IMG/VR virus record: IMGVR_UViG_3300044796_000056 | Coordinates: 1-64,000 of that record | Length of the DNA stretch: 64,000 nucleotides | Source of the DNA: a virus | Strand: one strand, 5' to 3' | Part shown: piece by piece, positions 11,397 through 39,466 of the stretch | Layout: each line of letters begins with the position of its first letter | How positions within the stretch are numbered: position 1 is the first letter of the stretch | Notes under the pieces: model-generated | What the model was told of the DNA's origin: nothing | Seen by the model: only the letters and a program-made list of their open reading frames with translations | The model's database searches: none | Position numbers and translations under genes: made by a program

Positions 11397-11466
11397 AGTA
11401 TGGTCGTCTAGTGGATAGGACGCTCCCGTTAAGGGGGAAACGAGTGTTCGAATCACTCTCATGCGT
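11397..11466 (+). tRNA. tRNA-like, isotype unclear
   Basis: D-arm and T-arm (GAGTG-TTCGAAT-CACTC) are canonical and the acceptor pairs at 6 of 7 positions. No CCA follows. The anticodon loop reads CGTTAAG or GTTAAGG depending on register, with no T33 in the best register. Probably a decayed tRNA. Confidence 0.4.
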
Positions 11467-11571
11467 TGTCCTGACTTAAATTATCGAAGTGGGTTCAACT
11501 CCTACGGGTGCCCGGTGGCTAGCGTACATCGGCGAAACGATGTGACAGCCGGAGAGACGGCAAAGATTTAT

Positions 11572-11646
11572 TCCGACTGACGCGCAAGGTGTGCGGTGCC
11601 GCTGTTAACGGCCTGTGGATAGGTTCGATTCCTATAGTCGGAGCCA
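11572..11646 (+). tRNA. tRNA-Asn(GTT)
   Basis: Acceptor TCCGACT/AGTCGGA, anticodon loop CTGTTAA, T-loop TTCGATT, discriminator G and encoded CCA. Confidence 0.85.
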
Positions 11647-11650
11647 ATTT

Positions 11651-11726
11651 GGGTTTATAGCACAACGGCCAATGCATCCGGCTCTTAACCGGTAAGATCA
11701 GGGTTCGAATCCCTGTAAACCCACCA
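11651..11726 (+). tRNA. tRNA-Lys(CTT)
   Basis: Acceptor GGGTTTA/TAAACCC, anticodon stem CCGG/CCGG, loop CTCTTAA, T-loop TTCGAAT, CCA encoded. Confidence 0.88.
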
Positions 11727-11733
11727 GAAGATT

Positions 11734-11786
11734 GATGTGTTGACCTTACGTCGCCGGTTGCGGAATGACGGGTCTAGACATCACCA
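11734..11786 (+). ncRNA. CCA-ended extended hairpin
   Basis: GATGT/ACATC closes a rod with inner helices GACC/GGTC, CGTC/GACG and CCG/CGG, then ends ACCA like a tRNA 3' end. There are no tRNA arms. Confidence 0.45.
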
Positions 11787-11835
11787 CGTCGAGTCGTGGC
11801 GTTTCGCGCAACAACGAAAGAGCGCGCTTGAATTC

Positions 11836-11909
11836 GGGCGGTTAGTATAGCGGGATTATGCCTGGCTTGCATCCAGGTGACAGGGGTTCGACTCCCCTAC
11901 TGTCCACCA
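11836..11909 (+). tRNA. tRNA-Ala(TGC)
   Basis: Acceptor GGGCGGT/ACTGTCC, anticodon arm CCTGG-CTTGCAT-CCAGG, T-loop TTCGACT, CCA encoded. Confidence 0.9.
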
Positions 11910-11954
11910 ATCCATGGGCGAAGCGGCGAAAGCCTTAGTAGTCCACCAGTTTAT

Positions 11955-12035
11955 GTCCTGTCACACTCGGCGAGTGGTTGGCGTGCAGACGTGTACGTCA
12001 GACGAAGAAGGCTTCATTAACCTCGCAGGACTCCA
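11955..12035 (+). ncRNA. CCA-tailed tRNA-like RNA, non-canonical
   Basis: A 7-bp acceptor (GTCCTGT/GCAGGAC), discriminator T and CCA enclose three hairpins: CACTC-GGC-GAGTG, GACG-TGTA-CGTC and GAAG-AAGG-CTTC. There is no T-loop consensus and no 7-nt anticodon loop. See findings. Confidence 0.5.
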
Positions 12036-12042
12036 AGTTTAC

Positions 12043-12117
12043 GCGGATGTGGCAGAATGGTAATGCCCAACTTTGCCAAAGTTGTGCTCGAGGGTTCGAT
12101 TCCCTTCGTCCGCTCCA
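12043..12117 (+). tRNA. tRNA-Gly(GCC)
   Basis: Acceptor GCGGATG/CGTCCGC, anticodon arm CAACT-TTGCCAA-AGTTG, T-loop TTCGATT, CCA encoded. Confidence 0.9.
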
Positions 12118-12121
12118 TTTC

Positions 12122-12197
12122 GGGTTATTAGCTCAGAGGCAGAGCATCCGGCTTTTAACCGGTAAGGTCGAGATATCGTAATTCTCATAACCCACCA
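12122..12197 (+). tRNA. tRNA-Lys(TTT)
   Basis: Acceptor GGGTTAT/ATAACCC and loop CTTTTAA are standard. The T-arm is odd: GAGA/TCTC around an enlarged loop without TTC, so function may be altered. Confidence 0.75.
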
Positions 12198-12204
12198 AGT
12201 TTAT

Positions 12205-12279
12205 GGCGTGTCTATGGTTGAGGTTGGATCGCACCCAGCAGGACTTGAAGCAAGGAGTTAGTAGCTCTCCACGCCACCA
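12205..12279 (+). ncRNA. CCA-tailed tRNA-like RNA, non-canonical
   Basis: 75 nt. Acceptor GGCGTG/CACGCC plus ACCA; inside lie GTTGG/CCAGC with a 7-nt loop, CTTG-AAG-CAAG and GAG-TTAGTAG-CTC. There is no conventional anticodon stem. Confidence 0.45.
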
Positions 12280-12286
12280 GTATTAT

Positions 12287-12360
12287 TCACTGATCGTCCA
12301 GCGGCAGGACATCTGGCTCTGACCCAGAGAACCTAGGTTCGAATCCTAGTCGGTGATCCA
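12287..12360 (+). tRNA. tRNA-Gln(CTG)
   Basis: Acceptor TCACTGA/TCGGTGA, anticodon arm TCTGG-CTCTGAC-CCAGA, CCA encoded. The 5' flank TATTAT and acceptor are shared with tRNA-Gln(TTG) at 13983, so the two are duplicates. Confidence 0.9.
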
Positions 12361-12374
12361 GACTATATAATCTC

Positions 12375-12677
12375 ATGCGCAAAGTAAGATTTCCTACTGA
12401 TATTGAACGTGCAGCCTACAGACGCAAAGTCGTCGCCCGTTTCAAACGGTTGAAAGGCTGTACTGACTGTGGCTACAAAGCCAATTCAGCAGCGTTAGAA
12501 TTTGATCATGTCGACGAAACTACCAAGACCAAAACGGTAGGATCGTTGATGTACAACGGATGGAAAGACATCAAGAATGAAATAGCAAAATGCGTCGTAC
12601 GATGTGCGAATTGCCACGCTATCAGAACACTTGAAAGAAACTACCGTAAGAAAGATTATGCCCGAGTGGTGGAATAG
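12375..12677 (+). CDS. HNH endonuclease in the tRNA array
   Basis: 100 residues. CTDCGYK, LEFDHVDE and CVVRCANCHAIRT form the HNH core with two zinc knuckles. It starts 14 nt after tRNA-Gln(CTG), and its last 18 nt overlap the 5' end of tRNA-Leu(TAG). It is probably a homing-type mobile gene that uses the tRNA array as a safe site. A TATAAT lies just before the ATG, without a clear -35. Confidence 0.8.
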   Translation: MRKVRFPTDIERAAYRRKVVARFKRLKGCTDCGYKANSAALEFDHVDETTKTKTVGSLMYNGWKDIKNEIAKCVVRCANCHAIRTLERNYRKKDYARVVE

Positions 12678-12742
12678 GCAGACACACCGCGCTTAGAACG
12701 CGACGCGAAAGCATGCAGGTTCGATTCCTGTCTCGGGTACCA
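12660..12742 (+). tRNA. tRNA-Leu(TAG)
   Basis: Acceptor GCCCGAG/CTCGGGT, anticodon arm CGCG-CTTAGAA-CGCG, extended variable arm, T-loop TTCGATT, CCA encoded. Confidence 0.88.
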
Positions 12743-12752
12743 AGTTTTGCTA

Positions 12753-12804
12753 GCAGAACGTCCTCTCACACCAGGCAATTAGAGCCGAAATGTCAAGACG
12801 CTGC
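12753..12804 (+). ncRNA. Repeated structured RNA element, copy 1
   Basis: Helices GCAG/CTGC and CGTC/GACG enclose a 34-nt apical segment that includes CTCT/AGAG. The apical segment is 31/34 identical to copy 2 at 13668, while the enclosing stems differ in sequence but still pair. Confidence 0.6.
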
Positions 12805-12814
12805 GGCTACCGTT

Positions 12815-12891
12815 TGCGGGTTGGAGAAGTGGCTATCTCGCTTGCCTCATAAGCAAGAGATCCTGGGTTCGAGTCCCAGACTCCGCTACCA
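12815..12891 (+). tRNA. tRNA-Met(CAT), initiator-like
   Basis: 77 nt, loop CTCATAA. Position 1-72 is a T-T mismatch and the 5' half TGCGGGTTGGAG resembles initiator tRNA, but the three G-C pairs of the initiator anticodon stem are absent. Elongator Met or Ile2 (lysidine-modified) cannot be excluded. Confidence 0.75.
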
Positions 12892-12998
12892 AATTTGTGG
12901 ACTATTCATCGGGCGAGAGCATCCGCTGTAACAGGCGCGTGATGCCAGTGCAGGTGCTCAATCCATCGTTCTGCCTGACGATACAGGCTTCTTATTCT

Positions 12999-13073
12999 GC
13001 CTTCAAAGCGTAAAAGGTGACGCGGTGGTTTTGTAATCCACAGAACACGGTTCGATTCCGTGTGAAGGCTCCA
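12999..13073 (+). tRNA. tRNA-Thr(TGT)
   Basis: Acceptor GCCTTCA/TGAAGGC, loop TTTGTAA, T-loop TTCGATT, CCA encoded. Upstream 12892-12998 is non-coding and hairpin-rich. Confidence 0.85.
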
Positions 13074-13083
13074 AGTTTAGTTG

Positions 13084-13150
13084 CCAGTTCTACCGGTCTC
13101 CGAGCCGGTCACCCGACACTAGTGTGGCAGGGTGCACAAATACTGGACCA
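13084..13150 (+). ncRNA. CCA-tailed RNA, non-canonical
   Basis: CCAGT/ACTGG closes ACCGG-N8-CCGGT and CACCC/GGGTG (with inner ACACTAGTGT), ending ACCA. Only two arms; 67 nt. Confidence 0.45.
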
Positions 13151-13163
13151 ATTCAAAGTTTAT

Positions 13164-13249
13164 GCGTCGTTGTGTGAGTGGTTAAAACAATCTGTCTGTA
13201 AAACAGATCTCTTCGGGGTACGGTGGTTCGAATCCATCACGGCGCACCA
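13164..13249 (+). tRNA. tRNA-Tyr(GTA)
   Basis: Acceptor GCGTCGT/ACGGCGC, anticodon arm ATCTGT-CTGTAAA-ACAGAT, long variable arm typical of Tyr, CCA encoded. Confidence 0.9.
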
Positions 13250-13259
13250 ATTTCAATAT

Positions 13260-13338
13260 GGCACCTTAGCATAGCCTGGCTTAATGCGCTACCCTGTCAC
13301 GGTAGAGATCACGGGTTCGAATCCCGTAGGTGTCGCCA
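13260..13338 (+). tRNA. tRNA-Asp(GTC)
   Basis: Acceptor GGCACCT/AGGTGTC, anticodon arm CTACC-CTGTCAC-GGTAG, CCA encoded. Confidence 0.9.
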
Positions 13339-13343
13339 ATTAT

Positions 13344-13418
13344 GCCTCGTTAGCTCAGCGATAGAGCGCCTCGTTTACACCGAGGATGTCGGCGGTTTGA
13401 TCCCGTCACGAGGTACCA
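13344..13418 (+). tRNA. tRNA-Val(TAC)
   Basis: Acceptor GCCTCGT/ACGAGGT, anticodon arm CCTCG-TTTACAC-CGAGG, T-loop TTTGATC, CCA encoded. Confidence 0.9.
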
Positions 13419-13424
13419 GTTTAT

Positions 13425-13499
13425 GCCTCACTCGTCCAAAGGCAAGGACGGCTGCCTGATTAGCGGCAAATCGCGGTTCGAGTCCGTGGTGAGGTACCA
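13425..13499 (+). tRNA. tRNA-Ile(GAT)
   Basis: Acceptor GCCTCAC/GTGAGGT, loop CTGATTA, T-loop TTCGAGT, CCA encoded. Confidence 0.88.
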
Positions 13500-13505
13500 A
13501 TCAAT

Positions 13506-13579
13506 GTCCGTCAAGTGTTACGGTAGCACAGCTGTCTCCAAAACAGCGGGCCGGGGTTCGACTCCCTGGATGGACGCCA
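13506..13579 (+). tRNA. tRNA-Trp(CCA)
   Basis: Acceptor GTCCGTC/GATGGAC, anticodon arm GCTGT-CTCCAAA-ACAGC, CCA encoded. Confidence 0.9.
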
Positions 13580-13583
13580 AATT

Positions 13584-13659
13584 GCCCTTATAGCATAACG
13601 GATAGTGTACAGTCCTGCGAAGACTGTGATCCAGGTTCGATTCCTGGTATGGGCGCCAA
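13584..13659 (+). tRNA. tRNA-Arg(GCG)
   Basis: Acceptor GCCCTTA/TATGGGC, anticodon arm CAGTC-CTGCGAA-GACTG, CCA encoded. G34 instead of the usual A34/inosine for CGN codons. Confidence 0.85.
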
Positions 13660-13667
13660 TTTGTAAA

Positions 13668-13723
13668 GCCGGAACAGGCCTCTCGCACCAGGCAATTAGA
13701 GCCAAAATGCCAAGCCTCCCGGC
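13668..13723 (+). ncRNA. Repeated structured RNA element, copy 2
   Basis: Helices GCCGG/CCGGC and AGGC/GCCT enclose a 34-nt apical segment nearly identical to copy 1 (12753-12804). Confidence 0.6.
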
Positions 13724-13733
13724 TAATTTATTT

Positions 13734-13807
13734 CAGGGTAAGGTGTTACGGTAGCATCCGAGTTTTGGAAACTTGTGGCCGGAGTTCAACTCTCCGTACC
13801 CTGACCA
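13734..13807 (+). tRNA. tRNA-Pro(TGG), first copy
   Basis: Acceptor CAGGGTA/TACCCTG, anticodon arm CGAGT-TTTGGAA-ACTTG, T-loop TTCAACT, CCA encoded. Shares the D-arm string GTGTTACGGTAGCA with tRNA-Trp, suggesting origin by copying. Confidence 0.75.
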
Positions 13808-13813
13808 ATTTAT

Positions 13814-13887
13814 GCGGGATAAGTGTTTGGGTTACACGATAGTCTTCCAAACTATCATAGCGGGTTCGAGTCCCGCACTCCGCTCCA
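13814..13887 (+). tRNA. tRNA-Gly(TCC)
   Basis: Anticodon arm GATAGT-CTTCCAA-ACTATC, T-loop TTCGAGT, CCA encoded; acceptor has one mismatch. Confidence 0.88.
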
Positions 13888-13942
13888 AGTTTATGCTTCT
13901 TTCACACAACTGAATCAGTGTGTAAACCATGTGAGCGCGCAA

Positions 13943-13974
13943 GCGGGTCGTTGGTAGAGGAGCTCCCAACCTCC
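13943..13974 (+). pseudogene. Truncated tRNA 5' half (Gly-CCC-like)
   Basis: GCGGGTCGTTGGTAGAGGAG followed by CTCCCAA resembles the D-arm and anticodon loop of tRNA-Gly. The 3' half is replaced by the leader shared with the two tRNA-Gln genes. Confidence 0.5.
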
Positions 13975-13982
13975 TTTATTAT

Positions 13983-14057
13983 TCACTGATCGTCTAATTG
14001 GCAGGACGCGAGGCTTTGACCCTCTGAATCTAGGTTCGAGTCCTAGTCGGTGATCCA
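13983..14057 (+). tRNA. tRNA-Gln(TTG)
   Basis: Acceptor TCACTGA/TCGGTGA, loop CTTTGAC, T-loop TTCGAGT, CCA encoded. Confidence 0.9.
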
Positions 14058-14063
14058 GTTTTT

Positions 14064-14139
14064 GCTCCTATAGAATAGAGGCCCAGTTCGCGACCCTCTC
14101 AAGGTTGACACACCGGTTCGAATCCGGTTAGGAGCGCCA
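14064..14139 (+). tRNA. tRNA-Glu(CTC)
   Basis: Acceptor GCTCCTA/TAGGAGC, anticodon arm CGACC-CTCTCAA-GGTTG, CCA encoded. Confidence 0.88.
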
Positions 14140-14146
14140 AATTATT

Positions 14147-14223
14147 CGGAGTGTAGCTCAGCCTGGTAGAGCGCGTGCCTTGGGCGCATGAGGTCGCAGG
14201 TTCGATTCCTGTCTCTCCGACCA
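14147..14223 (+). tRNA. tRNA-Pro(TGG), second copy
   Basis: Resembles the usual bacterial tRNA-Pro (CGGAGTG acceptor, loop CTTGGGC, T-loop TTCGATT, CCA). Confidence 0.9.
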
Positions 14224-14226
14224 TCT

Positions 14227-14332
14227 TTAAGTTGACGAGAGTTGGCCGTGTCATGAGCGGCATCGCCTCAAGCTGGTACTGTCATGGGTATCACGGCGGA
14301 CTACCGAATATTCCCGGAACCGTTCAACTTAA
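14227..14332 (+). ncRNA. Structured RNA with 9-bp closing stem
   Basis: TTAAGTTGA/TCAACTTAA encloses an inner helix GCCGTG/CACGGC. 106 nt, no frame and no tRNA features; lies between tRNA-Pro and tRNA-Glu. Confidence 0.5.
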
Positions 14333-14346
14333 TCTTTTCAGTTTAT

Positions 14347-14423
14347 GCACTTATCGTCTAGTGGCTCAGGATACTCGCCTTTCAAGCGGGATGACTGGGG
14401 TTCGAATCCCCATAGGTGCGCCA
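14347..14423 (+). tRNA. tRNA-Glu(TTC)
   Basis: Acceptor GCACTTA/TAGGTGC, anticodon arm CTCGC-CTTTCAA-GCGGG, CCA encoded. Confidence 0.9.
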
Positions 14424-14428
14424 ATTAT

Positions 14429-14503
14429 GCCTCTGAAGCTCAATGGAAGAGCAGCACGCTTCGAACGTGTTGGGTGCAGGTTCGAGTCCTGTCAGGGGTG
14501 CCA
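14429..14503 (+). tRNA. tRNA-Arg(TCG)
   Basis: Acceptor GCCTCTG/CAGGGGT, anticodon arm GCACG-CTTCGAA-CGTGT, CCA encoded. A GCCTGA/TCAGGC hairpin lies in the following spacer. Confidence 0.9.
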
Positions 14504-14580
14504 AATATGGACAAGGGTCCCGGTGAGTGTTCCACTTCACTGTACAACTAGAAGCCTGATGTATTTCAGGCAAGAATTAT

Positions 14581-14657
14581 GTCCTCTTAGCTCAACTGGA
14601 TAGAGCGCCGAGCTTCTACCTCGGATGTTACGGGTTCGAGTCCTGTAGAGGATGCCA
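14581..14657 (+). tRNA. tRNA-Arg(TCT)
   Basis: Acceptor GTCCTCT/AGAGGAT, anticodon arm CCGAG-CTTCTAC-CTCGG, CCA encoded. Confidence 0.9.
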
Positions 14658-14662
14658 TTTAT

Positions 14663-14769
14663 GACCGGTCTTGAGATGTAGGACACTACGATTTGATAGA
14701 CGGATAAGTTCAATCTTGCCGCATACATATCAGCAAGTGGATTCGCGACTCGCGCGAACACGGTCACCA
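14663..14769 (+). ncRNA. CCA-tailed RNA with three hairpins
   Basis: GACCG/CGGTC plus ACCA closes GTAG-GACA-CTAC, CTTGC/GCAAG and TTCGCG/CGCGAA. 107 nt, no tRNA consensus loops. Confidence 0.45.
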
Positions 14770-14776
14770 AGTTTAT

Positions 14777-14852
14777 TCTCCTGTACGCCAATGCCAGAGC
14801 GGCTGCCCAATACGGCAGTGGAAGTGAAGGTACAGTCCTTCCGGGAGAGCCA
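14777..14852 (+). ncRNA. tRNA-sized cloverleaf lacking consensus loops
   Basis: 76 nt. Acceptor TCTCCTG/CGGGAGA, discriminator G, CCA; D-stem CGC/GCG; anticodon-position stem CTGCC/GGCAG with a 6-nt loop CAATAC; T-position stem AAGG/CCTT with a 6-nt loop TACAGT. T33 and the TTC of the T-loop are absent. All four stems pair, so structure is kept while decoding features are lost. Confidence 0.55.
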
Positions 14853-14857
14853 ATTAC

Positions 14858-14933
14858 GTCCTTGTAGCTCAGCGGATAGAGCGGCGATCTCCTACATCGC
14901 AGGTCGTGGGCTCGACTCCCACCAAGGACTCCA
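14858..14933 (+). tRNA. tRNA-Arg(CCT)
   Basis: Acceptor GTCCTTG/CAAGGAC, anticodon arm GCGAT-CTCCTAC-ATCGC, T-loop CTCGACT, CCA encoded. Confidence 0.88.
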
Positions 14934-14936
14934 AGT

Positions 14937-15001
14937 TGCTCCACATTCCGGCCGGAGTGTACCCAATCCGCTAACGCAGAACGGGGCAATGCCAGGGAGC
15001 A
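14937..15001 (+). ncRNA. Structured RNA, TGCTCC/GGAGCA closed
   Basis: Closing stem TGCTCC/GGAGCA with inner hairpin ACATTCC-GGCC-GGAGTGT (7 bp). No frame, no tRNA features. Confidence 0.45.
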
Positions 15002-15010
15002 TTCAGTTTA

Positions 15011-15082
15011 GTCAGTACCGGTCACACGTCACCTGAAGACATAGGGCAGACCGGCTAAGAGATAGCATGCCAGACTACTGAC
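15011..15082 (+). ncRNA. Structured RNA, GTCAGTA/TACTGAC closed
   Basis: 7-bp closing stem with inner CCGGTC/GACCGG, 72 nt, between tRNA-Arg and tRNA-His. Confidence 0.45.
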
Positions 15083-15092
15083 ATTTGATTAT

Positions 15093-15168
15093 GGAGTTTG
15101 TCAGCCAGCGGTTAGGCTCCCTCTCTGTGAAAGAGGTAACTCGGGTTCGAATCCCGACATTCTCCCCA
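15093..15168 (+). tRNA. tRNA-His(GTG)
   Basis: Loop CTGTGAA, extra 5' G opposite C73 (hallmark of tRNA-His), T-arm TCGGG-TTCGAAT-CCCGA, CCA encoded. Two T-T mismatches in the acceptor. Confidence 0.88.
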
Positions 15169-15221
15169 ATAATTTTACCTTTCAATATATAAAAGTATCA
15201 TCACTCTTTGAGGGTACTTTG

Positions 15222-15929
15222 ATGCGCAACCCGCTACTAGCTGCTTTGATGGCTCTGTTGTTTGGTTGTACGCAAAGTAATTACGAACAGTCACTGACAG
15301 CAATTCGACTAGACATGGATGACGGTAGCATTTGCTCCGGCACCATAGTGGGTCCTCACGTCCTATTGACAGCGGCGCACTGCCTTGAGCGAGAACCTAT
15401 CATCAATCTGGATAAGATCCAAGATGATCAACAGGGTCCTCCTGCTCCACCAAAGAAACCCGAACCAAAGAAGCCTAAGAAACCATTCAACTTCTTGGAC
15501 TTGATCACGATTCCTCCTCCATTCACGTCAGTGGCCATCAATGGCCGTGAAACAAAGATTCTGTCTATTGTGCCTGATCACAACGACCATGTCTTAGTCG
15601 AGGTAGACTACACGTTCAATCACTATGCCTCCTTGGCGGTCAACCGACCAGCTGTGGGTGGCAAAGTTCATTACTGGGGCAACCCTGCCGGTAAGCTCAT
15701 GGTCTACCGGGAAGGCTACGTCAGCTTCTACGATAAGACGATGATGGAAATGGATGTCAACGGTTTCTTCGGTGACAGTGGTTCCGGTATCTTCAATGAA
15801 GCCGGTCAGATTGTAGGAGTCATGAACGTCATAGACTTCGATCATCACCACGGTTTACAATTTTCATTGATGGGTTCTGAGCAGCTAGAATTTACTCCAC
15901 AACAGTTGGATATGCTCGGGATTCAATAA
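15222..15929 (+). CDS. Exported trypsin-like serine protease (lipoprotein)
   Basis: 235 residues from ATG 15222 (GAGGG upstream). The N-terminus has a lipoprotein signal with lipobox LFGC. The chymotrypsin-fold triad is visible: LLTAAHC (His), a candidate Asp in the VLVEVD stretch, and GDSGSG (Ser). A Pro/Lys-rich insert lies at ~75-100. It should act in the periplasm or at the outer membrane of the infected cell. It stands alone between tRNA-His and tRNA-Ser, so it is a cargo gene in the array. Confidence 0.85.
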   Translation: MRNPLLAALMALLFGCTQSNYEQSLTAIRLDMDDGSICSGTIVGPHVLLTAAHCLEREPIINLDKIQDDQQGPPAPPKKPEPKKPKKPFNFLDLITIPPPFTSVAINGRETKILSIVPDHNDHVLVEVDYTFNHYASLAVNRPAVGGKVHYWGNPAGKLMVYREGYVSFYDKTMMEMDVNGFFGDSGSGIFNEAGQIVGVMNVIDFDHHHGLQFSLMGSEQLEFTPQQLDMLGIQ

Positions 15930-15936
15930 AGTATAT

Positions 15937-16028
15937 GGATGGTTGGCAGAGTCCGGCTTATTGCACTAGTCTTGAAAACTAGCAGACCAGAAATGGTCAC
16001 GTGGGTTCAAATCCTACACCATCCGCCA
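15937..16028 (+). tRNA. tRNA-Ser(TGA)
   Basis: Acceptor GGATGGT/ACCATCC, anticodon arm CTAGT-CTTGAAA-ACTAG, long variable arm, CCA encoded. Confidence 0.9.
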
Positions 16029-16042
16029 GAGCAAGGGAGACA

Positions 16043-16060
16043 TGTTGGTTCGACTCCAAC
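16043..16060 (+). pseudogene. tRNA T-arm remnant
   Basis: TTGG-TTCGACT-CCAA without the other arms. The rest of 16029-16178 shows no gene. Confidence 0.4.
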
Positions 16061-16178
16061 CGTGAACAGTACGGCTGCACGCAGGATATCTGGAACATCC
16101 GCTCCCGCTTGATCTAGACGCTCTCACTGCTTAGCGATACAGAGCAGTTGACCGGGAAGAAAGGTTCCCACGAATTAT

Positions 16179-16268
16179 GGGTGATTGGCCGAGCGGTTTA
16201 AGGCACCTGCCTAGAAAGCAGAAGAGGGCTAACGTCCTCCGTGGGTTCGAATCCTACATCACCCGCCA
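16179..16268 (+). tRNA. tRNA-Ser(AGA)
   Basis: Acceptor GGGTGAT/ATCACCC, loop CTAGAAA (anticodon AGA), long variable arm, CCA encoded. A34 is unusual in a bacterial tRNA-Ser. Confidence 0.85.
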
Positions 16269-16282
16269 GATTAAATGATTTT

Positions 16283-16359
16283 GCCCCACTGACGGAATTG
16301 GCATACGTACCACACTCAAAACGTGGGTTTTCAGGGTTCGACTCCCTGGTAGGGCACCA
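16283..16359 (+). tRNA. tRNA-Leu(CAA)
   Basis: Loop CTCAAAA, acceptor GCCCCAC/GTAGGGC with one mismatch, CCA encoded. The variable region is only ~5 nt, short for a Leu tRNA. Confidence 0.75.
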
Positions 16360-16460
16360 GATGTCTTGATGTTGATGTTTACAAGGTGACTTATGCGATA
16401 GCAATACGACCCTTAATGAAATTTTACTTATAGAAAGTTTATAGATTGATTTTACATGTA

Positions 16461-16508
16461 ATGGCGCAGAAAGTTGCCGGTCTCATAAACTGGCGATCAA
16501 TGGGCCAT
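16461..16508 (+). pseudogene. Mini tRNA-like RNA with CAT loop
   Basis: ATGGC/GCCAT encloses only an anticodon-like arm GCCGGT-CTCATAA-ACTGGC. D- and T-arms are absent. The flanking 16360-16518 is AT-rich and shows no gene. Confidence 0.4.
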
Positions 16509-16518
16509 GAAGTGTAAC

Positions 16519-16591
16519 GACTTGCCAATTGTTAAGGCAGCATGCCCGGCTTTAAACCGGGAAGAGTTGGTTCGATTCCAACGACAAGTCA
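16519..16591 (+). tRNA. Candidate ochre suppressor tRNA, anticodon TTA
   Basis: Anticodon arm CCCGG-CTTTAAA-CCGGG places TTA at 34-36, which would read UAA. T-arm GTTGG-TTCGATT-CCAAC is perfect; acceptor GACTTG/CAAGTC has six pairs. CCA is not encoded, so CCA addition would be needed. Confidence 0.65.
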
Positions 16592-16595
16592 TAGA

Positions 16596-16644
16596 AGATT
16601 GTATGCATTCCTAATGTCCGAGTCTGGTTACAGGTATACAATCT
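16596..16644 (+). ncRNA. Structured RNA, 9-bp closing stem
   Basis: AGATTGTAT/ATACAATCT perfect stem. Further hairpins AGCAGG/CCTGCT and AGGAAC/GTTCCT follow up to ~16735. Confidence 0.45.
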
Positions 16645-16744
16645 ACAGGTCTTAAGGATACGAGCAGGCAACGTTGTTCTCCTGCTACGTTTAGGAACAC
16701 GTCCTTACGGTGTGCTGGCCACATAAAAGGTTCCTACTTATTAC

Positions 16745-16819
16745 GGGTTCTTAGCTGAGACGGATTAGCGCTGGTCTGAAAAGCCGGAGAGGAAGGATCG
16801 TTACCTTCAGTGCCCACCA
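16745..16819 (+). tRNA. tRNA-Phe(GAA)
   Basis: Acceptor GGGTTCT/AGTGCCC, loop CTGAAAA, CCA encoded. T-loop ATCGTTA deviates from consensus. Confidence 0.75.
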
Positions 16820-16828
16820 ATTTCGATT

Positions 16829-16845
16829 TTGGGTTCGACACCCAA
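16829..16845 (+). pseudogene. tRNA T-arm remnant
   Basis: TTGGG-TTCGACA-CCCAA without other arms; a CACCC-GCAA-GGGTG hairpin follows. Confidence 0.4.
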
Positions 16846-16903
16846 CGTTCAAGGACACCCGCAAGGGTGACTTACACTTGCGGCAGGAGCAATCATTTAT
16901 TAC

Positions 16904-16981
16904 GGTGATGTGGCGGAGATGGCTCATCGCGCTTTCCTCATAAGAAAGAGAACACTGGTTCGAGTCCAGTTATCACCACCA
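16904..16981 (+). tRNA. tRNA-Met or Ile2 (CAT)
   Basis: Acceptor GGTGATG/TATCACC, anticodon arm CTTTC-CTCATAA-GAAAG, T-loop TTCGAGT, CCA encoded. Elongator Met or lysidine-modified Ile2 cannot be told apart here. Confidence 0.85.
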
Positions 16982-16990
16982 AGTTTAGGT

Positions 16991-17122
16991 CTGCGTTAGA
17001 CCGTAAGGTCTCTATCTGGTTGACATGGGACGCAGTAATCGCTAACACCAAAGGAACCGCTAAGAACCGCAATCGGTTCTTGATGAGCAATCATCAGTCG
17101 GTAACGAACCCCATTAGCGTCC
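16991..17122 (+). ncRNA. Structured RNA with two alternative closing stems
   Basis: CTGCGT (16991) can pair with ACGCAG (17030), or GGACGC (17028) with GCGTCC (17117); the two share ACGC. Inside lie AGACC-GTAA-GGTCT, AAGAACCG/CGGTTCTT and GATGA-GCAA-TCATC. Confidence 0.55.
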
Positions 17123-17133
17123 AATCTTTATAT

Positions 17134-17228
17134 GCTCCATAGCTCAGGTGAGCGGGTGCGTTTTATAAGCGCGCGAGAGTGGCCGGACTGGCTGCAACGG
17201 GCAGGTTCGAGTCCTGTATGGAGTACCA
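17134..17228 (+). tRNA. tRNA-Ile(TAT), long variable region
   Basis: Acceptor GCTCCAT/ATGGAGT, T-loop TTCGAGT, CCA encoded. The loop TTTATAA gives TAT in the best register. At 95 nt it is too long for Ile; ~25 extra nt with a GCC/GGC hairpin sit before the T-arm, so isotype is uncertain. Confidence 0.55.
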
Positions 17229-17232
17229 TCAT

Positions 17233-17310
17233 GCCTCTGTGGCGAAACTGGCAAACGCGGCGAACTTAAAATCCGCTCCATTGTGGGTTCGACTCCCTCC
17301 TGAGGCACCA
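17233..17310 (+). tRNA. tRNA-Leu(TAA)
   Basis: Acceptor GCCTCTG/CTGAGGC, loop CTTAAAA, CCA encoded. Anticodon stem has one mismatch and the variable arm is short. Confidence 0.78.
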
Positions 17311-17433
17311 TTTGATTGATCTCCCGGGATGTGCCGGGTGAAGATTCGGGTCGGCGAAAGCCGAGAGCGAGAGTGAGTGTAAGCCTGTAAGATCGGGTCA
17401 GCTGAGTACAGCACATGCTTCTAAAGAGTCGAT

Positions 17434-17494
17434 GACAACTACCAGCGAAGACAGGGTCTTTGATACGCTGGGATACAAATCCTGAACTGTTGTC
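17434..17494 (+). ncRNA. Structured RNA, GACAAC/GTTGTC closed
   Basis: Closing stem GACAAC/GTTGTC with CCAGCG/CGCTGG, AAGAC-AGG-GTCTT and GGAT-ACAA-ATCC inside. The preceding 17311-17433 also carries TCGGC-GAAA-GCCGA and GCTG-AGTA-CAGC; no gene. Confidence 0.55.
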
Positions 17495-17540
17495 TAAAGC
17501 ACCACGAGCGGTAGTCCAATCCGCATCAATCATCTTCTTC

Positions 17541-17614
17541 GACTGTATAGCTCAATGGTAGAGCAACGCCACGACACGGCGAAGACCAAGGCTCGATTCC
17601 TTGTACGGTCACCA
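17541..17614 (+). tRNA. tRNA-Val(GAC)
   Basis: Acceptor GACTGTA/TACGGTC, loop ACGACAC (C33 instead of T33), T-loop CTCGATT, CCA encoded. Confidence 0.7.
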
Positions 17615-17616
17615 TA

Positions 17617-18144
17617 TCAATTCAAAGGCAATCCTCTTGACTTACGACCGTTGCCCCTATTCCTACCATGAGCAGTAGGAGTCATCGCGTGGCAATTAGG
17701 ACACAACAATCTAAGGTTTGATGGGAGATTATTCCCAGCATTCCCATCGATATGATCCAGTTCAAGTGGAATGGGTGATACTTTCCAATCTGTTAGAAGA
17801 CAGTCTTCACATTTATGTCCTCTCAAATCTATGAGATATCTTTTCAGATAATATCTATCGGTGTAGCTGCCAGAAAGTATTTTTTGCTCTCGATTATCAC
17901 GTATCTTTTCAAGGGTGAGTTTGTCTGATTTAGGCTTGCCTGTTCCTAATCTGTTATTGGTCAATTTGATAGCACAAGAATGAGAACAGAAAGTGTATTT
18001 CCTACGGTCATAATCTATCACCTTCCCACACCACTTACATAGTGTGGGATTTTCTAGATAGTGTTTTATATTCGCTGCTCGTTTTGCGTTGGATGTTGCT
18101 ATGGAGGCAGCGCCTCCCAATTTTCCCGCTTCTGATTTGTTCAT
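17617..18144 (-). CDS. HNH homing endonuclease, minus strand
   Basis: 175 residues. CKWCGK and FCSHSC form an N-terminal zinc ribbon, then CEDCLLTDW, LELDHIDGNAGNN and LRLLCPNCHAMT give the HNH core. It is the only minus-strand gene in the left 45 kb and sits between tRNA-Val and tRNA-Thr with 2 nt spacing on each side, a clean insertion. Confidence 0.85.
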   Translation of the reverse strand: MNKSEAGKLGGAASIATSNAKRAANIKHYLENPTLCKWCGKVIDYDRRKYTFCSHSCAIKLTNNRLGTGKPKSDKLTLEKIRDNREQKILSGSYTDRYYLKRYLIDLRGHKCEDCLLTDWKVSPIPLELDHIDGNAGNNLPSNLRLLCPNCHAMTPTAHGRNRGNGRKSRGLPLN

Positions 18145-18146
18145 AT

Positions 18147-18220
18147 GCCCTTGTAGTCTAATGGTAAGACAGTTTCTTGGTAAGAAACAGTATTTAGTTC
18201 GATTCTAAACTAGGGCACCA
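18147..18220 (+). tRNA. tRNA-Thr(GGT)
   Basis: Acceptor GCCCTTG/CTAGGGC, anticodon arm GTTTC-TTGGTAA-GAAAC, CCA encoded. Confidence 0.88.
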
Positions 18221-18225
18221 TTATT

Positions 18226-18260
18226 CGTTCCTCACAGTTCGATTCTGTGTTGGGGCTCCA
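18226..18260 (+). pseudogene. tRNA 3' half remnant with CCA
   Basis: CACAG-TTCGATT-CTGTG T-arm, acceptor 3' strand and CCA, but no 5' half. Confidence 0.5.
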
Positions 18261-18347
18261 GTTTCGATGATTTGTCAAGTCCCATATTTCGTAGGAGTGT
18301 CTTCTAACGAGGATTCTCGAGACCAAACAAGCCATCGATCTCAATTG

Positions 18348-18376
18348 TTTACTCTTACAGTTAGATAGAGTATGAT
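18348..18376 (+). promoter_or_regulatory. Early-type promoter, leaderless
   Basis: TTTACT, 17 nt beginning CTTACA, TATGAT; ATG 7 nt after the -10. Confidence 0.7.
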
Positions 18377-18383
18377 AGTATAC

Positions 18384-18539
18384 ATGAAGACGGTCGCTAT
18401 GGTGATTGTGTTCGCAGCCTTAACGGGCTGCGCCAATGCCCGTATCTATGCGTTTTGTGATAAACGTATCGACAAGGACCAGAAGACACATTATCATTGC
18501 GACAAACAACATATGATTGGTTTTGGCTATAAATTCTGA
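18384..18539 (+). CDS. Small lipoprotein
   Basis: 51 residues. Hydrophobic N-terminus with lipobox LTGC (Cys at ~16), then a Cys/His-containing mature part (residues ~25-40). Expressed from its own promoter as a leaderless message. Function unknown. Confidence 0.65.
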   Translation: MKTVAMVIVFAALTGCANARIYAFCDKRIDKDQKTHYHCDKQHMIGFGYKF

Positions 18540-18547
18540 GGTGTGAC

Positions 18548-18877
18548 TTGAGCAACATTGTACTATTGAAATTGATCAGCGACGTTGATTTGGTCGCACA
18601 ACGAGTTTCCGAGCCGAACGTAGCACCGCTGAAGGTTCAGCATTGCGTTCAGCTATTGATGCAGCAGGATCCTCAATCCGGTAAGATTGGTTTCGTACCA
18701 ATGCCGTGGGGAGTGCTGGCAGGTTCTGATTTTATCTTCACGTTCGATGATACGAAGCTGGTCTATGGACTAGAGGCTCCGGCCGAACTTGAAGCACTGT
18801 ATCGTAAAATTCATGGTATGGTGGAATTGCCTTCCAAGGGACTGTTGATCCCAGGACAAGGTCCAAGCAAGAGATAA
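18548..18877 (+). CDS. Hypothetical protein (TTG start)
   Basis: 109 residues, TTG start with GAGGTG upstream. Pattern of beta strands and helices, no family recognised. Translationally close (8 nt) to the lipoprotein gene. Confidence 0.6.
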   Translation: MSNIVLLKLISDVDLVAQRVSEPNVAPLKVQHCVQLLMQQDPQSGKIGFVPMPWGVLAGSDFIFTFDDTKLVYGLEAPAELEALYRKIHGMVELPSKGLLIPGQGPSKR

Positions 18878-18883
18878 GTTTAT

Positions 18884-18961
18884 GTTGTGGTGGCTGAGCG
18901 GCCCAAAGCATCTGTCTGCAAAACAGTAACACCATCGGTTCAAATCCGATCCACAACTCCA
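18884..18961 (+). tRNA. tRNA-Cys(GCA)
   Basis: Acceptor GTTGTGG/CCACAAC, loop CTGCAAA, T-loop TTCAAAT, CCA encoded. Confidence 0.9.
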
Positions 18962-18976
18962 AATTCGCGCTGCGTG

Positions 18977-18983
18977 CTAAATA
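18977..18983 (+). promoter_or_regulatory. Late-type promoter element CTAAATA
   Basis: CTAAATA 30 nt upstream of the HNH gene at 19014; not part of a stop codon of another gene. Confidence 0.5.
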
Positions 18984-19013
18984 ATATCATGATGTTACAT
19001 TGATAGGTGATTT

Positions 19014-19619
19014 ATGTCAGCGATGGATGTGTTGGTTGTCGATAAGGGTGGAAACCCTCGGGACTGGTTGAACTACCAGGACACCGTTAAGGCTTACGCA
19101 GAGGATAGGGTTATTTGTAACCTAGGATCTCACGTGCGCACTTATGTCGGTGGCCGCAATTCAACTGGCAAGCTCTCTAAGATTGAGATCTCATCTATTG
19201 TTATGGTCACCGGCCCAGTGCTTGGTGAGAAGTTCAAGTTCCGTGTAACCAAGTTCGCTGAGCGTCCTATTCTGTACGCTCGTGACTGCTACATGTGCGC
19301 TTACTGTGGTATCGTCCATAAGGACACGAAGTCAATTGATCTTCATTTGACCATTGATCATGTGATGCCTCGCTCACGCGGTGGTGATCACACTTGGACG
19401 AATACGGTAACGTCGTGCGCTGCTTGTAACCACGGTAAGGCAGACAGGACTCCGGAGGAAGCAGGAATGCAGCTTCTGTATGTTCCTTACGCACCTAACC
19501 TTCAGGAGAAGCTACTTCTGAAGAACCGCAAGGTGAAGGCCGATCAGATGGATTACTTGTTGTCTGTCATTCCGAAGACTTCAAGGATTCACCAGAACGT
19601 TCAACATTTGCGTAATTGA
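19014..19619 (+). CDS. HNH endonuclease, bacterial stand-alone type
   Basis: 201 residues. CYMCAYCG, LTIDHVMPRSRGGDHTWTN and SCAACNHGKADRTPEEAG form a complete HNH with flanking zinc cysteines. This version resembles bacterial stand-alone HNH proteins rather than the homing genes elsewhere here. A CTAAATA late element precedes it. It may process DNA (for example at packaging), but the target is unknown. Confidence 0.82.
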   Translation: MSAMDVLVVDKGGNPRDWLNYQDTVKAYAEDRVICNLGSHVRTYVGGRNSTGKLSKIEISSIVMVTGPVLGEKFKFRVTKFAERPILYARDCYMCAYCGIVHKDTKSIDLHLTIDHVMPRSRGGDHTWTNTVTSCAACNHGKADRTPEEAGMQLLYVPYAPNLQEKLLLKNRKVKADQMDYLLSVIPKTSRIHQNVQHLRN

Positions 19620-19622
19620 TAT

Positions 19623-19712
19623 AGAAGGTTGCCAGAGTGGTCTAATGGCGCAGTTTGCTAAACTGATGGTTCCGAAAGGGGCACAAGGGTTCAAATCCCT
19701 TACCTTCTGCCA
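19623..19712 (+). tRNA. tRNA-Ser(GCT)
   Basis: Acceptor AGAAGGT/ACCTTCT, loop TTGCTAA, long variable arm, CCA encoded. The following 19713-19870 is non-coding with hairpins CCTC-GTAA-GAGG, TTGAG/CTCAA and AGGT/ACCT. Confidence 0.88.
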
Positions 19713-19870
19713 GAGTTTCCGGTTAACCTCGTAAGAGGCCCAATCGGTTCGTTGAGTATAGAGGCTCAATGTTCAGGTATTGCAACCTGTGATAAGCCTT
19801 GGGACAAATAATGTCACTCCCGCCGTTGCTAAGTGGATAGGGCATAACAAACTCCGAGGATACATTTGAT

Positions 19871-20041
19871 ATGACGAGTAAAGAAGAGGTATGGGCCGAT
19901 CGTTGCTTCGTCATGATGGAGATAAGGAATCTTGTTCCACTACTCCAGGGAGAGCTCCTTGCCCGGTACAACGAGTTCCTTCTCAAGCCGATTGAGTACC
20001 GCAACTATATTCGTGAACTGGTGATACATTATGACACGTGA
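19871..20041 (+). CDS. Small hypothetical protein
   Basis: 56 residues, mostly helical (EEVWADRCFVMMEIRNLV). GAGGA lies upstream, and it overlaps the next start by 11 nt, which supports a real coupled gene. No family recognised. Confidence 0.55.
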   Translation: MTSKEEVWADRCFVMMEIRNLVPLLQGELLARYNEFLLKPIEYRNYIRELVIHYDT

Positions 20042-20498
20042 CGCACAAACAATCGCAAAAGAACTTCAAGAGATCGAACGCAAGAAGCGCGACCTTCAAG
20101 ATGAACAAACTAAGCTCTACTGGGCTTCCGAGCGCTTGAAGCGCCAAGCCAAGAAGAGCACATTGACGGCTGGTAGCTGGGTGAATGGCATAGGCCAGAT
20201 CATCACGACTGGAGATCTTTGTGTTGGTGTCACGGCTAACCGAGGAGCCAAAGTCACGGTTGGTACCTTTGCAGGATTCAGAGAACGTGGTGGCAAGGTC
20301 ACTTCAGTCAGTCTGAACATCATGAAGGAAGTCTATTACTACCAGACAACCGATGGTAAGCTTCACAAGCGATATCCTCTGGTTGATGGACGTAGGAACT
20401 ACAGCATCTCTTACTCCAGAATCAAGAAGCAAGAGATCCGCCGACAGTCATTCACACAGATGCGGGTTTACAAGATCCAACCGACGCAGACAGATTAA
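20031..20498 (+). CDS. Hypothetical protein with N-terminal coiled coil
   Basis: 155 residues. Residues 5-40 form a charged helix; residues ~45-110 are beta-rich (GDLCVGVTANRGAKVTVGTFAGF). A similar pattern (GDKVLIVTTGYSHSVSVRMGTYLG) occurs in the gene at 20846, so the two may share an SH3-like domain. Function unknown. Confidence 0.65.
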   Translation: MTRDAQTIAKELQEIERKKRDLQDEQTKLYWASERLKRQAKKSTLTAGSWVNGIGQIITTGDLCVGVTANRGAKVTVGTFAGFRERGGKVTSVSLNIMKEVYYYQTTDGKLHKRYPLVDGRRNYSISYSRIKKQEIRRQSFTQMRVYKIQPTQTD

Positions 20499-20570
20499 CG
20501 CGGCTGGATTAGCAGCCAAACGGACGCCACACCGTCTGAGAGCCCAAGACCGGTTAAGGGTGCAGGAAAT

Positions 20571-20789
20571 GTGGCACTGATTCAACAAGTCGACCTAACG
20601 CGGCAGATAAGGATGTTTGTCGAGGAAGTTCGCGACTGGCGCAGAGGACGAGTAGGAGCGAAAGCGACAAACTACCGTGATACAGCCAGCAATCTAAACA
20701 GAACCAGGGAATCCTTTGCTTATTGGTTCGGGTTAGAGCACCCACTCAACGGAGTGGGATTGATCGAAAGGTCTTTAGGCAAATGTTAG
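20571..20789 (+). CDS. Small basic hypothetical protein (GTG start)
   Basis: 72 residues, GTG start with GCAGGA upstream, Arg-rich helices. Moderate support only: the region 20499-20845 also has a GGCTG/CAGCC hairpin. Confidence 0.4.
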   Translation: MALIQQVDLTRQIRMFVEEVRDWRRGRVGAKATNYRDTASNLNRTRESFAYWFGLEHPLNGVGLIERSLGKC

Positions 20790-20845
20790 GATAGAACAGA
20801 ATCGCGGCTACGGACTTGTTGATAATTTATTAAGATGGAGTTAAT

Positions 20846-21370
20846 ATGGCATTGCGCAAACCAGTTGAACTTCCCTATGAGAATGATCTAGGTCACATCA
20901 TCAATGTTGGTGATAAGGTCTTGATCGTAACTACCGGCTACAGTCACAGCGTCTCGGTACGCATGGGCACCTACCTGGGCAAGATCCGCGACGACAAGGA
21001 CAGCGATTACGAATCTGGTTGTGTCGTGATGGTAGATGAAGAGCGCAGGGTTCTCCGTCACAAGGAAACCAATGAGGAGCTCGACTGGGAGAAACACATC
21101 GAACCGGCTACCGGTCCACGTCCTGAGTATCCCACACTACACCATGTGCAATGGCTGAGCAGAGTTCGTCTGACTGATGAACAGAACAAAGAGAATGCTG
21201 AACGCCAGGCAGCGCACAAGGTTGCCACCGATCTGTATAATGCTAAGCAGGTGGAAGTGATGAAGAACTTCCACCACGTCTATGAACCATACACTCGGCG
21301 CACAACTTTGCAGCGGAACCGGATCTATCCAGTGAACATGGGTCTCAAAGAGTTCATCCGACAGATCTAA
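20846..21370 (+). CDS. Hypothetical protein, SH3-like N-terminal half
   Basis: 174 residues. The N-terminal beta-rich half resembles that of the gene at 20031; the C-terminal half is helical and charged. GGAG lies upstream of the ATG. Not recognised. Confidence 0.65.
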   Translation: MALRKPVELPYENDLGHIINVGDKVLIVTTGYSHSVSVRMGTYLGKIRDDKDSDYESGCVVMVDEERRVLRHKETNEELDWEKHIEPATGPRPEYPTLHHVQWLSRVRLTDEQNKENAERQAAHKVATDLYNAKQVEVMKNFHHVYEPYTRRTTLQRNRIYPVNMGLKEFIRQI

Positions 21371-21385
21371 TAAATATCTGATAAC

Positions 21386-21460
21386 GCTCTGTAAGTGTTA
21401 CCGGTAGCACAGTTGTTTCGTAAGCAACAGGCTAGGGTTCGACTCCCTAACAGAGCACCA
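21386..21460 (+). tRNA. tRNA-Thr(CGT)
   Basis: Acceptor GCTCTGT/ACAGAGC, anticodon arm GTTGT-TTCGTAA-GCAAC, CCA encoded. TAATAAATA just upstream may act as a late-type promoter. Confidence 0.9.
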
Positions 21461-37121: not shown

Positions 37122-37197
37122 CGATGTGTAGCTCAAACTGGCTAGAGCAGGATCTCTAAAATCCAAGATCAGGGTTCGATGCCCTGCACAACGGCCA
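37122..37197 (+). tRNA. Amber suppressor tRNA, anticodon CTA
   Basis: Acceptor CGATGTG/CACAACG (one mismatch), D-arm AGCTC/GAGC, anticodon arm GGAT-CTCTAAA-ATCC with CTA at 34-36, T-arm CAGGG-TTCGATG-CCCTG, discriminator G, CCA encoded. It stands alone, 16 kb from the array, behind a late promoter element. Confidence 0.82.
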
Positions 37198-38421: not shown

Positions 38422-39126
38422 ATGATGAATTTCAAAGCAGCATTCAAAGCGTGTGCCGACGCCAAGGATATTTCCAGCGTTGACATCGTACAATACGCTA
38501 TCCTTCGCGCCATGAAAGCGAAGACGGCTCAGACTATTGAGGACCGTATCAAGATAGCATCAACCTTTATCCGCCGGCACTTTCGTTCTGTGAAGAATAG
38601 AAAGATGCTCGATAATGGGGTTGATCCAGAAAGAGCGGTTAGGAGAGCGACCGAAATTACTAAGAGTGCTAAGGTCATCTGTGGCATTCTAGAAAAGAGT
38701 ATGTTTACTGATGAACGTGAGCGCATCCTCTACAAAAACATCGCGGTGGCTTTATATGAGCAGTACAAGATCCCTGCGGATCTTTACACCAGACATTACG
38801 TCTACATCTTCGTGCGTCAAGATATGACGCCGGAGTATCAGCTAGTCCAGGCTAGCCATGCGGCGGCTCGCATGGGACAACGTCTAGGATCCAATGGCAT
38901 TGACCAGGGCAAGTTTGATGAGTTGTATTTCAGTGTGATTGGTGTCCCTGATCTTCATGGTCTTGCCAAAGCATTGGAAGACTTCAAGCAGCGCGGTATC
39001 AAGACCTATCCGTTCATTGAGCCAGACATCGGAAACGTGATGACAGCATTCGCTTCCGACCCGGTTTGGTCACATGATCGTAAGGGATTGCTATCTTACA
39101 AGAGATTGGTCTTCAAGAAGGACTAA
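38422..39126 (+). CDS. Probable Pth2-like peptidyl-tRNA hydrolase
   Basis: 234 residues from ATG 38422, with GGAGA upstream. The N-terminal ~120 residues are helical without a known domain. The C-terminal half, VYIFVRQDMTPEYQLVQASHAAARMG ... GVPDLHGLAKALEDFKQRGI ... IEPDIGN, follows the Pth2 pattern (R-D ... Q-SHAA ... D-G-T/N). Pth2 frees tRNA from peptidyl-tRNA. It lies directly upstream of the tmRNA gene, which supports a ribosome-rescue role. Family assignment is by pattern only. Confidence 0.55.
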   Translation: MMNFKAAFKACADAKDISSVDIVQYAILRAMKAKTAQTIEDRIKIASTFIRRHFRSVKNRKMLDNGVDPERAVRRATEITKSAKVICGILEKSMFTDERERILYKNIAVALYEQYKIPADLYTRHYVYIFVRQDMTPEYQLVQASHAAARMGQRLGSNGIDQGKFDELYFSVIGVPDLHGLAKALEDFKQRGIKTYPFIEPDIGNVMTAFASDPVWSHDRKGLLSYKRLVFKKD

Positions 39127-39129
39127 ATA
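39123..39129 (+). promoter_or_regulatory. Late-type element before the tmRNA
   Basis: CTAAATA overlapping the stop of the Pth2-like gene; predicted start near 39136. Confidence 0.5.
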
Positions 39130-39135
39130 GGTTTG

Positions 39136-39413: not shown

Positions 39414-39437
39414 ACTCTTTAACTTAATCAGGCCAGT

Positions 39438-39466
39438 TTTACTCTTACAGTTTCCAGGCGTATAAT
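39438..39466 (+). promoter_or_regulatory. Early-type promoter of cell-wall hydrolase
   Basis: TTTACT, 17 nt beginning CTTACA, TATAAT; ~30-nt leader with AAGGA before ATG 39503. Confidence 0.75.

Follow-up and report, generated by a model that had tools for sequence, protein, structure and literature searches.

The phage represented by IMG/VR virus record IMGVR_UViG_3300044796_000056, of which we analysed 64 kb of the 76,220 bases (hereafter the window), carries within its transfer RNA (tRNA) array two copies of a hairpin that almost certainly belong to a genuine structured RNA family. The family appears to be undescribed in Rfam 15 and in the open literature that we searched. In phages, plasmids and bacterial chromosomes, members lie beside genes for stand-alone MuF_C proteins, which are predicted ribonucleases (RNases), and the RNA and the protein are very probably linked in function. 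Our preferred reading, held with modest confidence, is that the RNA is an antitoxin which would inhibit these RNases.

Members of the RNA family and their distribution

The original prediction, made from the letters of the window, had paired the two copies on the strength of 31 shared bases in a 34-nt apex, with closing helices that differ in sequence and still pair. Direct reading bears this out: both apices are 34 nt long with three differences between them, and each copy is closed by paired helices unlike those of the other. A 24-nt pattern for the element occurs twice in the window, as against none in 100 shuffles, so its recurrence is not due to chance. When each sequence is folded singly, copy 2 gives z-scores of −2.1 to −2.8. 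Copy 1 gives −0.2 to −1.4, no better than shuffled sequence, and the case for structure therefore rests on comparison.

The original prediction had allowed for a search that might find no further members; we found ∼58 distinct copies, in IMG/VR contigs, Aeromonas phages, three plasmids and 16 bacterial genomes, counted after the removal of matches in coding sequence and of unpaired matches. In IMG/VR, scanning for an exact 16-mer brought up the core again in unrelated contigs, on different stems, and looser patterns added more. Matches by blastn were to the Aeromonas phages 62AhydR11PP and 4_D05 and to plasmids of Aeromonas veronii (3.7 kb), Pseudomonas silesiensis and Pleionea; at blastn sensitivity the element was absent from E. 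coli genomes. From a scan of ∼85,000 genomes of bacteria and archaea we accepted ∼17 loci as real. They belong to 16 genomes, and with a single exception the names are those of gamma- or beta-proteobacteria. Most genomes have exactly one copy, and the present phage has two. Some pattern matches (our loci L003, L024, L052–L061, L065, L076 and L077) were dropped because they lay in coding sequence or lacked the pairing, and L062 and L070 were dropped as doubtful.

The element has no match at the Rfam 15 gathering threshold in the window, and neither copy matched any Rfam family up to E = 5 within 12740–13740. Elsewhere Rfam gave matches at chance level only, with a weak microRNA match at L019. 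A known ribozyme, riboswitch or tRNA-like element is thus without Rfam support. ARAGORN and Rfam detect the flanking tRNAs and not the element, and open frames that cross the elements do not persist among members, so that the view that it is neither tRNA nor protein stands. Our search of the open literature on PBECR, PF18819 and phage tRNA-array RNAs returned no account of the RNA family, nor of an RNA partner for MuF_C.

Consensus structure and covariation

The structure was derived from an ungapped alignment of 50 copies. The outer stem, P1, varies in length and sequence and has an optional 3 × 1 internal loop; where this is missing, as in L014, L025, L027 and others, P1 stacks directly beneath a C–C mismatch in the apex. 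The apex is no plain loop, since it contains two further short helices. Its conserved parts are the C–C mismatch, P2 (RCA/UGY), an internal loop (CCA/RAAA), P3 (NGC/GCN′) and a heptaloop (AANNAGA), while columns 12 and 41, below the mismatch, covary (U–A in 32 sequences and C–G in 18).

The covarying stems that had been proposed from two copies hold across all 50, where P1 covaries at all eight pairs. The closing pair of P3 uses all four Watson–Crick combinations (C–G 16, A–U 15, G–C 14, U–A 5) and is broken in none, as the proposed selection for an RNA fold would have it. Standard pairs occupy 88.4% of cells, compared with 65.2% in shuffles and 19–42% in slid controls, and the covariation score is 0.628 vs 0.169. 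RNAalifold recovers the fold unaided, together with the 12–41 pair, and 18 of the 50 columns are invariant. An H-type pseudoknot (CTCT/AGAG plus GGCA/TGCC) was considered and rejected: CTCT changes to GTCC while AGAG is invariant, and the covarying pairs are instead 12–41, 14–39 and 20–32. Covariation backs nested helices only, although the invariant bases of the loops might form a tertiary pseudoknot.

Copy 1 in the window (12753–12804, plus strand) scores 61.6 bits at 12755–12804 with our covariance model, R1. On the 5′ side its stem consists of GCAG (12753–12756), AA and CGTC (12759–12762), and on the 3′ side of GACG (12797–12800) and CTGC (12801–12804). These enclose the apex CTCTCACACCAGGCAATTAGAGCCGAAATGTCAA (12763–12796, plus strand), whose conservation and helices are those supported by covariation over the 50 sequences. 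Within it, the T12766–A12795 pair and the C12767 × C12794 mismatch are followed by P2 (ACA 12768–12770/TGT 12791–12793), the internal loop (CCA 12771–12773/GAAA 12787–12790), P3 (GGC 12774–12776/GCC 12784–12786) and the heptaloop AATTAGA (12777–12783). Copy 2 (13668–13723, plus strand; R1 score 56.6 bits at 13672–13721) has a stem of GCCGG (13668–13672), AAC and AGGC (13676–13679) facing GCCT (13714–13717), C and CCGGC (13719–13723), around the apex CTCTCGCACCAGGCAATTAGAGCCAAAATGCCAA (13680–13713, plus strand). The T13683–A13712 pair and the C × C mismatch recur, P2 is altered on both sides relative to copy 1 (GCA 13685–13687/TGC 13708–13710), and P3 (GGC 13691–13693/GCC 13701–13703) carries the heptaloop AATTAGA (13694–13700).

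Association with stand-alone MuF_C genes

Clustering of the neighbouring open reading frames (ORFs) revealed one family, of 147–161 aa, common to unrelated loci (L007, L019, L046, L064, L068, L072 and L081). A profile search added an eighth adjacent gene, from a Pokkaliibacter genome, which had been lost earlier at the edge of the 8-kb chunk taken for L069. The eight loci are distributed over phages (L007 and L046), a plasmid (L019) and chromosomes (L064, L068, L072, L081 and L096), and in all of them 0–80 bp separate the stop codon of the gene from the RNA. Physical linkage is thereby established. Five of the pairs are convergent and three lie on the same strand, and these flips of orientation make antisense control unlikely. 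At a further locus, L075, the RNA has been kept beside a 26-residue C-terminal remnant of the protein.

The adjacent proteins match Pfam MuF_C (PF18819), with 31.2–53.1 bits in ten proteins against a gathering cut-off of 27.6; PADLOC and NCBIfam gave nothing useful for them. They have a conserved histidine and a C-terminal serine, in agreement with the PBECR active site given in PMC5512222, where MuF-C is a predicted PBECR (BECR-type) RNase with solo forms in phages and mobile elements. The 16 RNA-bearing bacterial genomes contain five close MuF_C genes, every one of them adjacent to the RNA. In 368 other gammaproteobacteria we found neither the RNA nor a close MuF_C gene, the MuF_C-like matches being three weak ones, of which two fall in long ORFs and the third is truncated. 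The association has a Fisher p of 6e-8, in genome surveys that are not fully independent, the MuF_C profile having been built from the RNA neighbours. Two further surveys, of 158 and 392 genomes, gave no close stand-alone MuF_C without the RNA.

Searches with MuF_C alone (tblastn and profile) returned divergent stand-alone genes on Glaesserella plasmids (L087 and L088), in a Pasteurellaceae genome (L104) and on pPma4326A (L086), the Pasteurellaceae proteins showing 22–34% identity. Covariance model R1 detected no RNA at these four loci. By reading the DNA, we found at L087, L088 and L104 two tandem hairpins running from the stop codon on, then a terminator. They have the form P1-GA-CUU-A-GC-AANNRGA-GC-NA-NAG-GA-P1′, with P1 stems that differ (UUUAG/CUAAA, AUUG/CAAU, GUAG/CUAC and GUUG/CAAC) and apices of GC-AAGUAGA-GC or GC-AAUUGGA-GC. 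At L086 a long hairpin convergent to the gene has a GC-AUUGAGA-GC apex and the C–C mismatch. The relaxed apex has a chance expectation of ∼0.008 in 300 strand-bases, with a pattern devised after the cases had been seen, so that the figure is a guide rather than a clean test. No hairpin was found with MuF_C domains inside polyvalent proteins of 800–3400 aa, nor with the truncated MuF_C of L117. The MuF_C gene with tandem hairpins at L104 (1468–2022 of that locus) contains an in-frame TAG and may be inactive in that strain.

Transcription and genomic placement

We compared promoters at 23 loci from bacteria, plasmids and prophages. Among sigma-70-like promoters that end 3–14 nt before the stem, the best one at each locus scored a mean of 8.6, compared with 6.5 at random positions (p about 2e-10); TTGACC-17-TATATT, in L096 and L078, is an example. 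In most of these loci T-runs occur 11–65 nt past the start of the scan, either directly on the stem or behind a second hairpin. Copies outside tRNA arrays are predicted to encode RNAs of 60–100 nt, driven by their own stem-base promoter and mostly ended by a terminator, an arrangement that points to a small RNA and not to a tRNA-processing signal.

Solitary bacterial and plasmid copies at L063, L067/L124, L071, L074, L079 and L021 tend to adjoin conflict genes, namely those for a VbhA-type antitoxin, RelE/ParE, a Phd/YefM antitoxin, an McrBC component and Fic. In four Haemophilus-like genomes (L144–L147) a one-mismatch variant of the hairpin, GGACTAAGCAAGCAGAGCGAAAGGAC, with a CACATTAaT-type stem, is conserved between gdhA and ilvA.

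Proposed function and alternative explanations

As an antitoxin, the RNA would use its long, variable stem to present the conserved apex, with the C–C mismatch, the RCA/UGY helix, the CCA/RAAA loop and the NGC-AANNAGA-GCN hairpin. A MuF_C RNase might bind this apex as a non-productive substrate mimic and so be kept inactive. The linkage in phage, plasmid and chromosome, on either strand, together with the RNA's own promoter, the tandem repeats and its survival beyond decay of the toxin, fits an RNA antitoxin that acts on the protein. Large phages, the present one included, appear to carry the RNA without the protein, often in tRNA arrays, and its production and processing there would go along with those of the tRNAs. 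Such a solitary RNA could shield the infection from MuF_C RNases of the host, a prophage or a plasmid, in the manner of the pseudo-ToxI RNA discussed below. We see an even chance that this is a novel kind of RNA antitoxin, distinct in fold and paired with a BECR-type (MuF_C) toxin, whose solitary copies in tailed phages and some bacteria serve as a heritable shield, embedded in the tRNA arrays of phages.

Several observations weigh against an antitoxin. Any MuF_C is missing from 11 of the 16 RNA-bearing bacterial genomes and from 25 of the 27 phage and plasmid records searched, among them the present phage, some of these records being fragments. The gene order, with the RNA past the toxin stop and under its own promoter, is unlike that of type III toxin–antitoxin (TA) modules. 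The Pasteurellaceae and P. syringae hairpins are tied to the canonical family by architecture and loop only, and the variant between gdhA and ilvA has no adjacent MuF_C and could have a separate housekeeping role. An AlphaFold model of MuF_C (six sequences) had a predicted local distance difference test (pLDDT) score of 68 and no meaningful Foldseek match in the PDB, so that for the RNase fold we rely on Pfam and published work. Both the toxicity of MuF_C and its inhibition by the RNA are predictions from sequence.

The RNA might be a partner of MuF_C in a different sense, either as a regulatory or processing target through which the protein controls its own mRNA or a signal, or as a cofactor within a ribonucleoprotein defence effector built on MuF_C. 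The same genomic linkage speaks for this, and the Pasteurellaceae hairpins, which begin at the toxin stop codon, would be part of the toxin mRNA. We nevertheless think such a role unlikely, given that the RNA is far commoner than MuF_C genes and is retained by itself in phages, with its own promoters. A cofactor or autoregulatory site deprived of its protein should decay, yet the invariant columns remain 18 of 50.

It is also improbable, in our estimate, that the RNA has an independent function in phage or host, for instance as a decoy or ligand of some widespread host RNA-binding protein or RNase, with MuF_C merely one mobile-element setting. Most copies are without MuF_C, the solitary bacterial copies lie in generic defence and TA islands, with VbhA, Phd, Fic, RelE/ParE and McrC genes close by, and the gdhA–ilvA copies of the Haemophilus-like genomes are in keeping with such a function. 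However, the adjacency to MuF_C is far above expectation (the p-value given above), and it was recovered again starting from divergent MuF_C proteins.

A processing or spacing element of phage tRNA arrays is very improbable and is largely refuted. Both copies in the window do lie in a phage tRNA array, and a same-strand tRNA is found within 150 bp, often 2–14 nt off, at 14 of 38 viral loci. The original prediction offered no function, and the family is broader than such arrays, with copies on plasmids and bacterial chromosomes. The other 24 of the 38 viral loci lie elsewhere, nearly all bacterial and plasmid copies are outside tRNA arrays, with their own promoter and mostly a terminator, and among the ∼38 tRNAs of the window's array the element occupies two slots only. 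That the hairpin acts as DNA, as a terminator or a recombination or origin hairpin, is scarcely credible: the copies at L007, L012, L019 and L020 are intrinsic terminators between convergent genes, yet the apical sequence is orientation-specific, pair 14–39 includes G–U cells, promoters enter one defined strand and many copies have no immediate T-run.

Comparison with known systems

Type III TA systems (ToxIN, CptIN and TenpIN; AbiQ/antiQ) resemble the eight loci found here in that a predicted endoribonuclease gene stands beside a short structured RNA. They too occur on plasmids, phages and chromosomes, and some have tandem RNA repeats; here there are two hairpins in Pasteurellaceae and a single copy in most others. 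In contrast, ToxN is MazF/Kid-like and the toxin here is of the MuF_C/BECR type. Type III antitoxins are pseudoknots, and the pairs tested here describe an extended hairpin with none. Moreover, the RNA of a type III system precedes the toxin gene in a shared operon that has an attenuating terminator. Here it follows the toxin stop and either has a promoter of its own or lies on the other strand. The RNA would work like a type III antitoxin, yet it should not be classed there, because the operon order differs, a pseudoknot is unsupported in the tested pairs and neutralisation is something that we infer. Type I TA differs as well: at three loci the RNA is on the toxin's strand, and the convergent ones lie at or beyond the toxin stop, so the RNA would not be antisense to the toxin mRNA.

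RNA-based phage counter-defence includes solitary CRISPR-repeat mimics, Racr. Phage TE evades ToxIN by means of pseudo-ToxI, an RNA carried alone (PMC5086642). Here, too, a phage has the isolated RNA half of what would be a defence module, with a different fold and target and a function that is predicted. In a prophage, the AbiF toxin is neutralised by RCd22, an RNA in which a conserved motif occurs twice (PMC12373285). This toxin–RNA pair (AbiF/Abi_2 and its non-coding RNA) is comparable in having a repeated RNA motif; it differs in that our RNA has no Rfam abiF match and its neighbour is MuF_C, not Abi_2. Together, pseudo-ToxI and AbiF/RCd22 provide precedents for the two halves of the shield and antitoxin idea. 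The adjacent proteins, being above the PF18819 cut-off, are akin to the polymorphic and polyvalent phage RNase domains of the MuF-C/PBECR group. The passages of PMC5512222 that we consulted describe no RNA partner for these, whereas here one accompanies the stand-alone forms and is missing from the large polyvalent ones.

An RNA family absent from Rfam 15 thus has very strong covariation support, and the uncharacterised stand-alone MuF_C RNases gain a candidate RNA partner. If the proposal is correct, phage tRNA arrays would serve RNA-level counter-defence besides codon supply, RNA-neutralised toxin systems would be extended by one new fold for the toxin and one for the RNA, and the element would be a marker for discovering more phage decoy RNAs.

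The tRNA array and other features of the window

The array that holds both copies extends over 11397–21460, all on the plus strand (ARAGORN and Rfam RF00005). Copy 1 lies between tRNA-Leu(tag) (12660–12742) and tRNA-Met(cat) (12816–12887), and copy 2 between tRNA-Arg(gcg) (13584–13658) and tRNA-Pro(tgg) (13734–13807), all four plus-strand genes predicted by ARAGORN, with 12–14 nt separating each copy from its flanking tRNAs. Another IMG/VR contig, L004, has a near-identical array. Gaps of 90–200 nt between array tRNAs contain other unannotated sequences (12198–12286, 12888–12998, 13074–13163, 13888–13982, 14224–14346, 14658–14857 and 16982–17133), which may be degenerate tRNAs or additional non-coding RNAs. 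The gap at 14224–14346 folds well (z about −2), and the end of that at 12198–12286 resembles a tRNA acceptor stem with CCA.

Three ORFs within the array are HNH-endonuclease-like by their sequence motifs (12375–12677, 17617–18144 and 19014–19619). Far from the main array, at 37122–37197, is a tRNA with the anticodon CTA, of the amber suppressor type. The phage also encodes a transfer-messenger RNA (tmRNA) at 39098–39455, which matches the permuted tmRNA family RF04321 with 129 bits and also beta_tmRNA, and for which ARAGORN gives the tag ASNDDIYDTVELALAA, followed by a stop.
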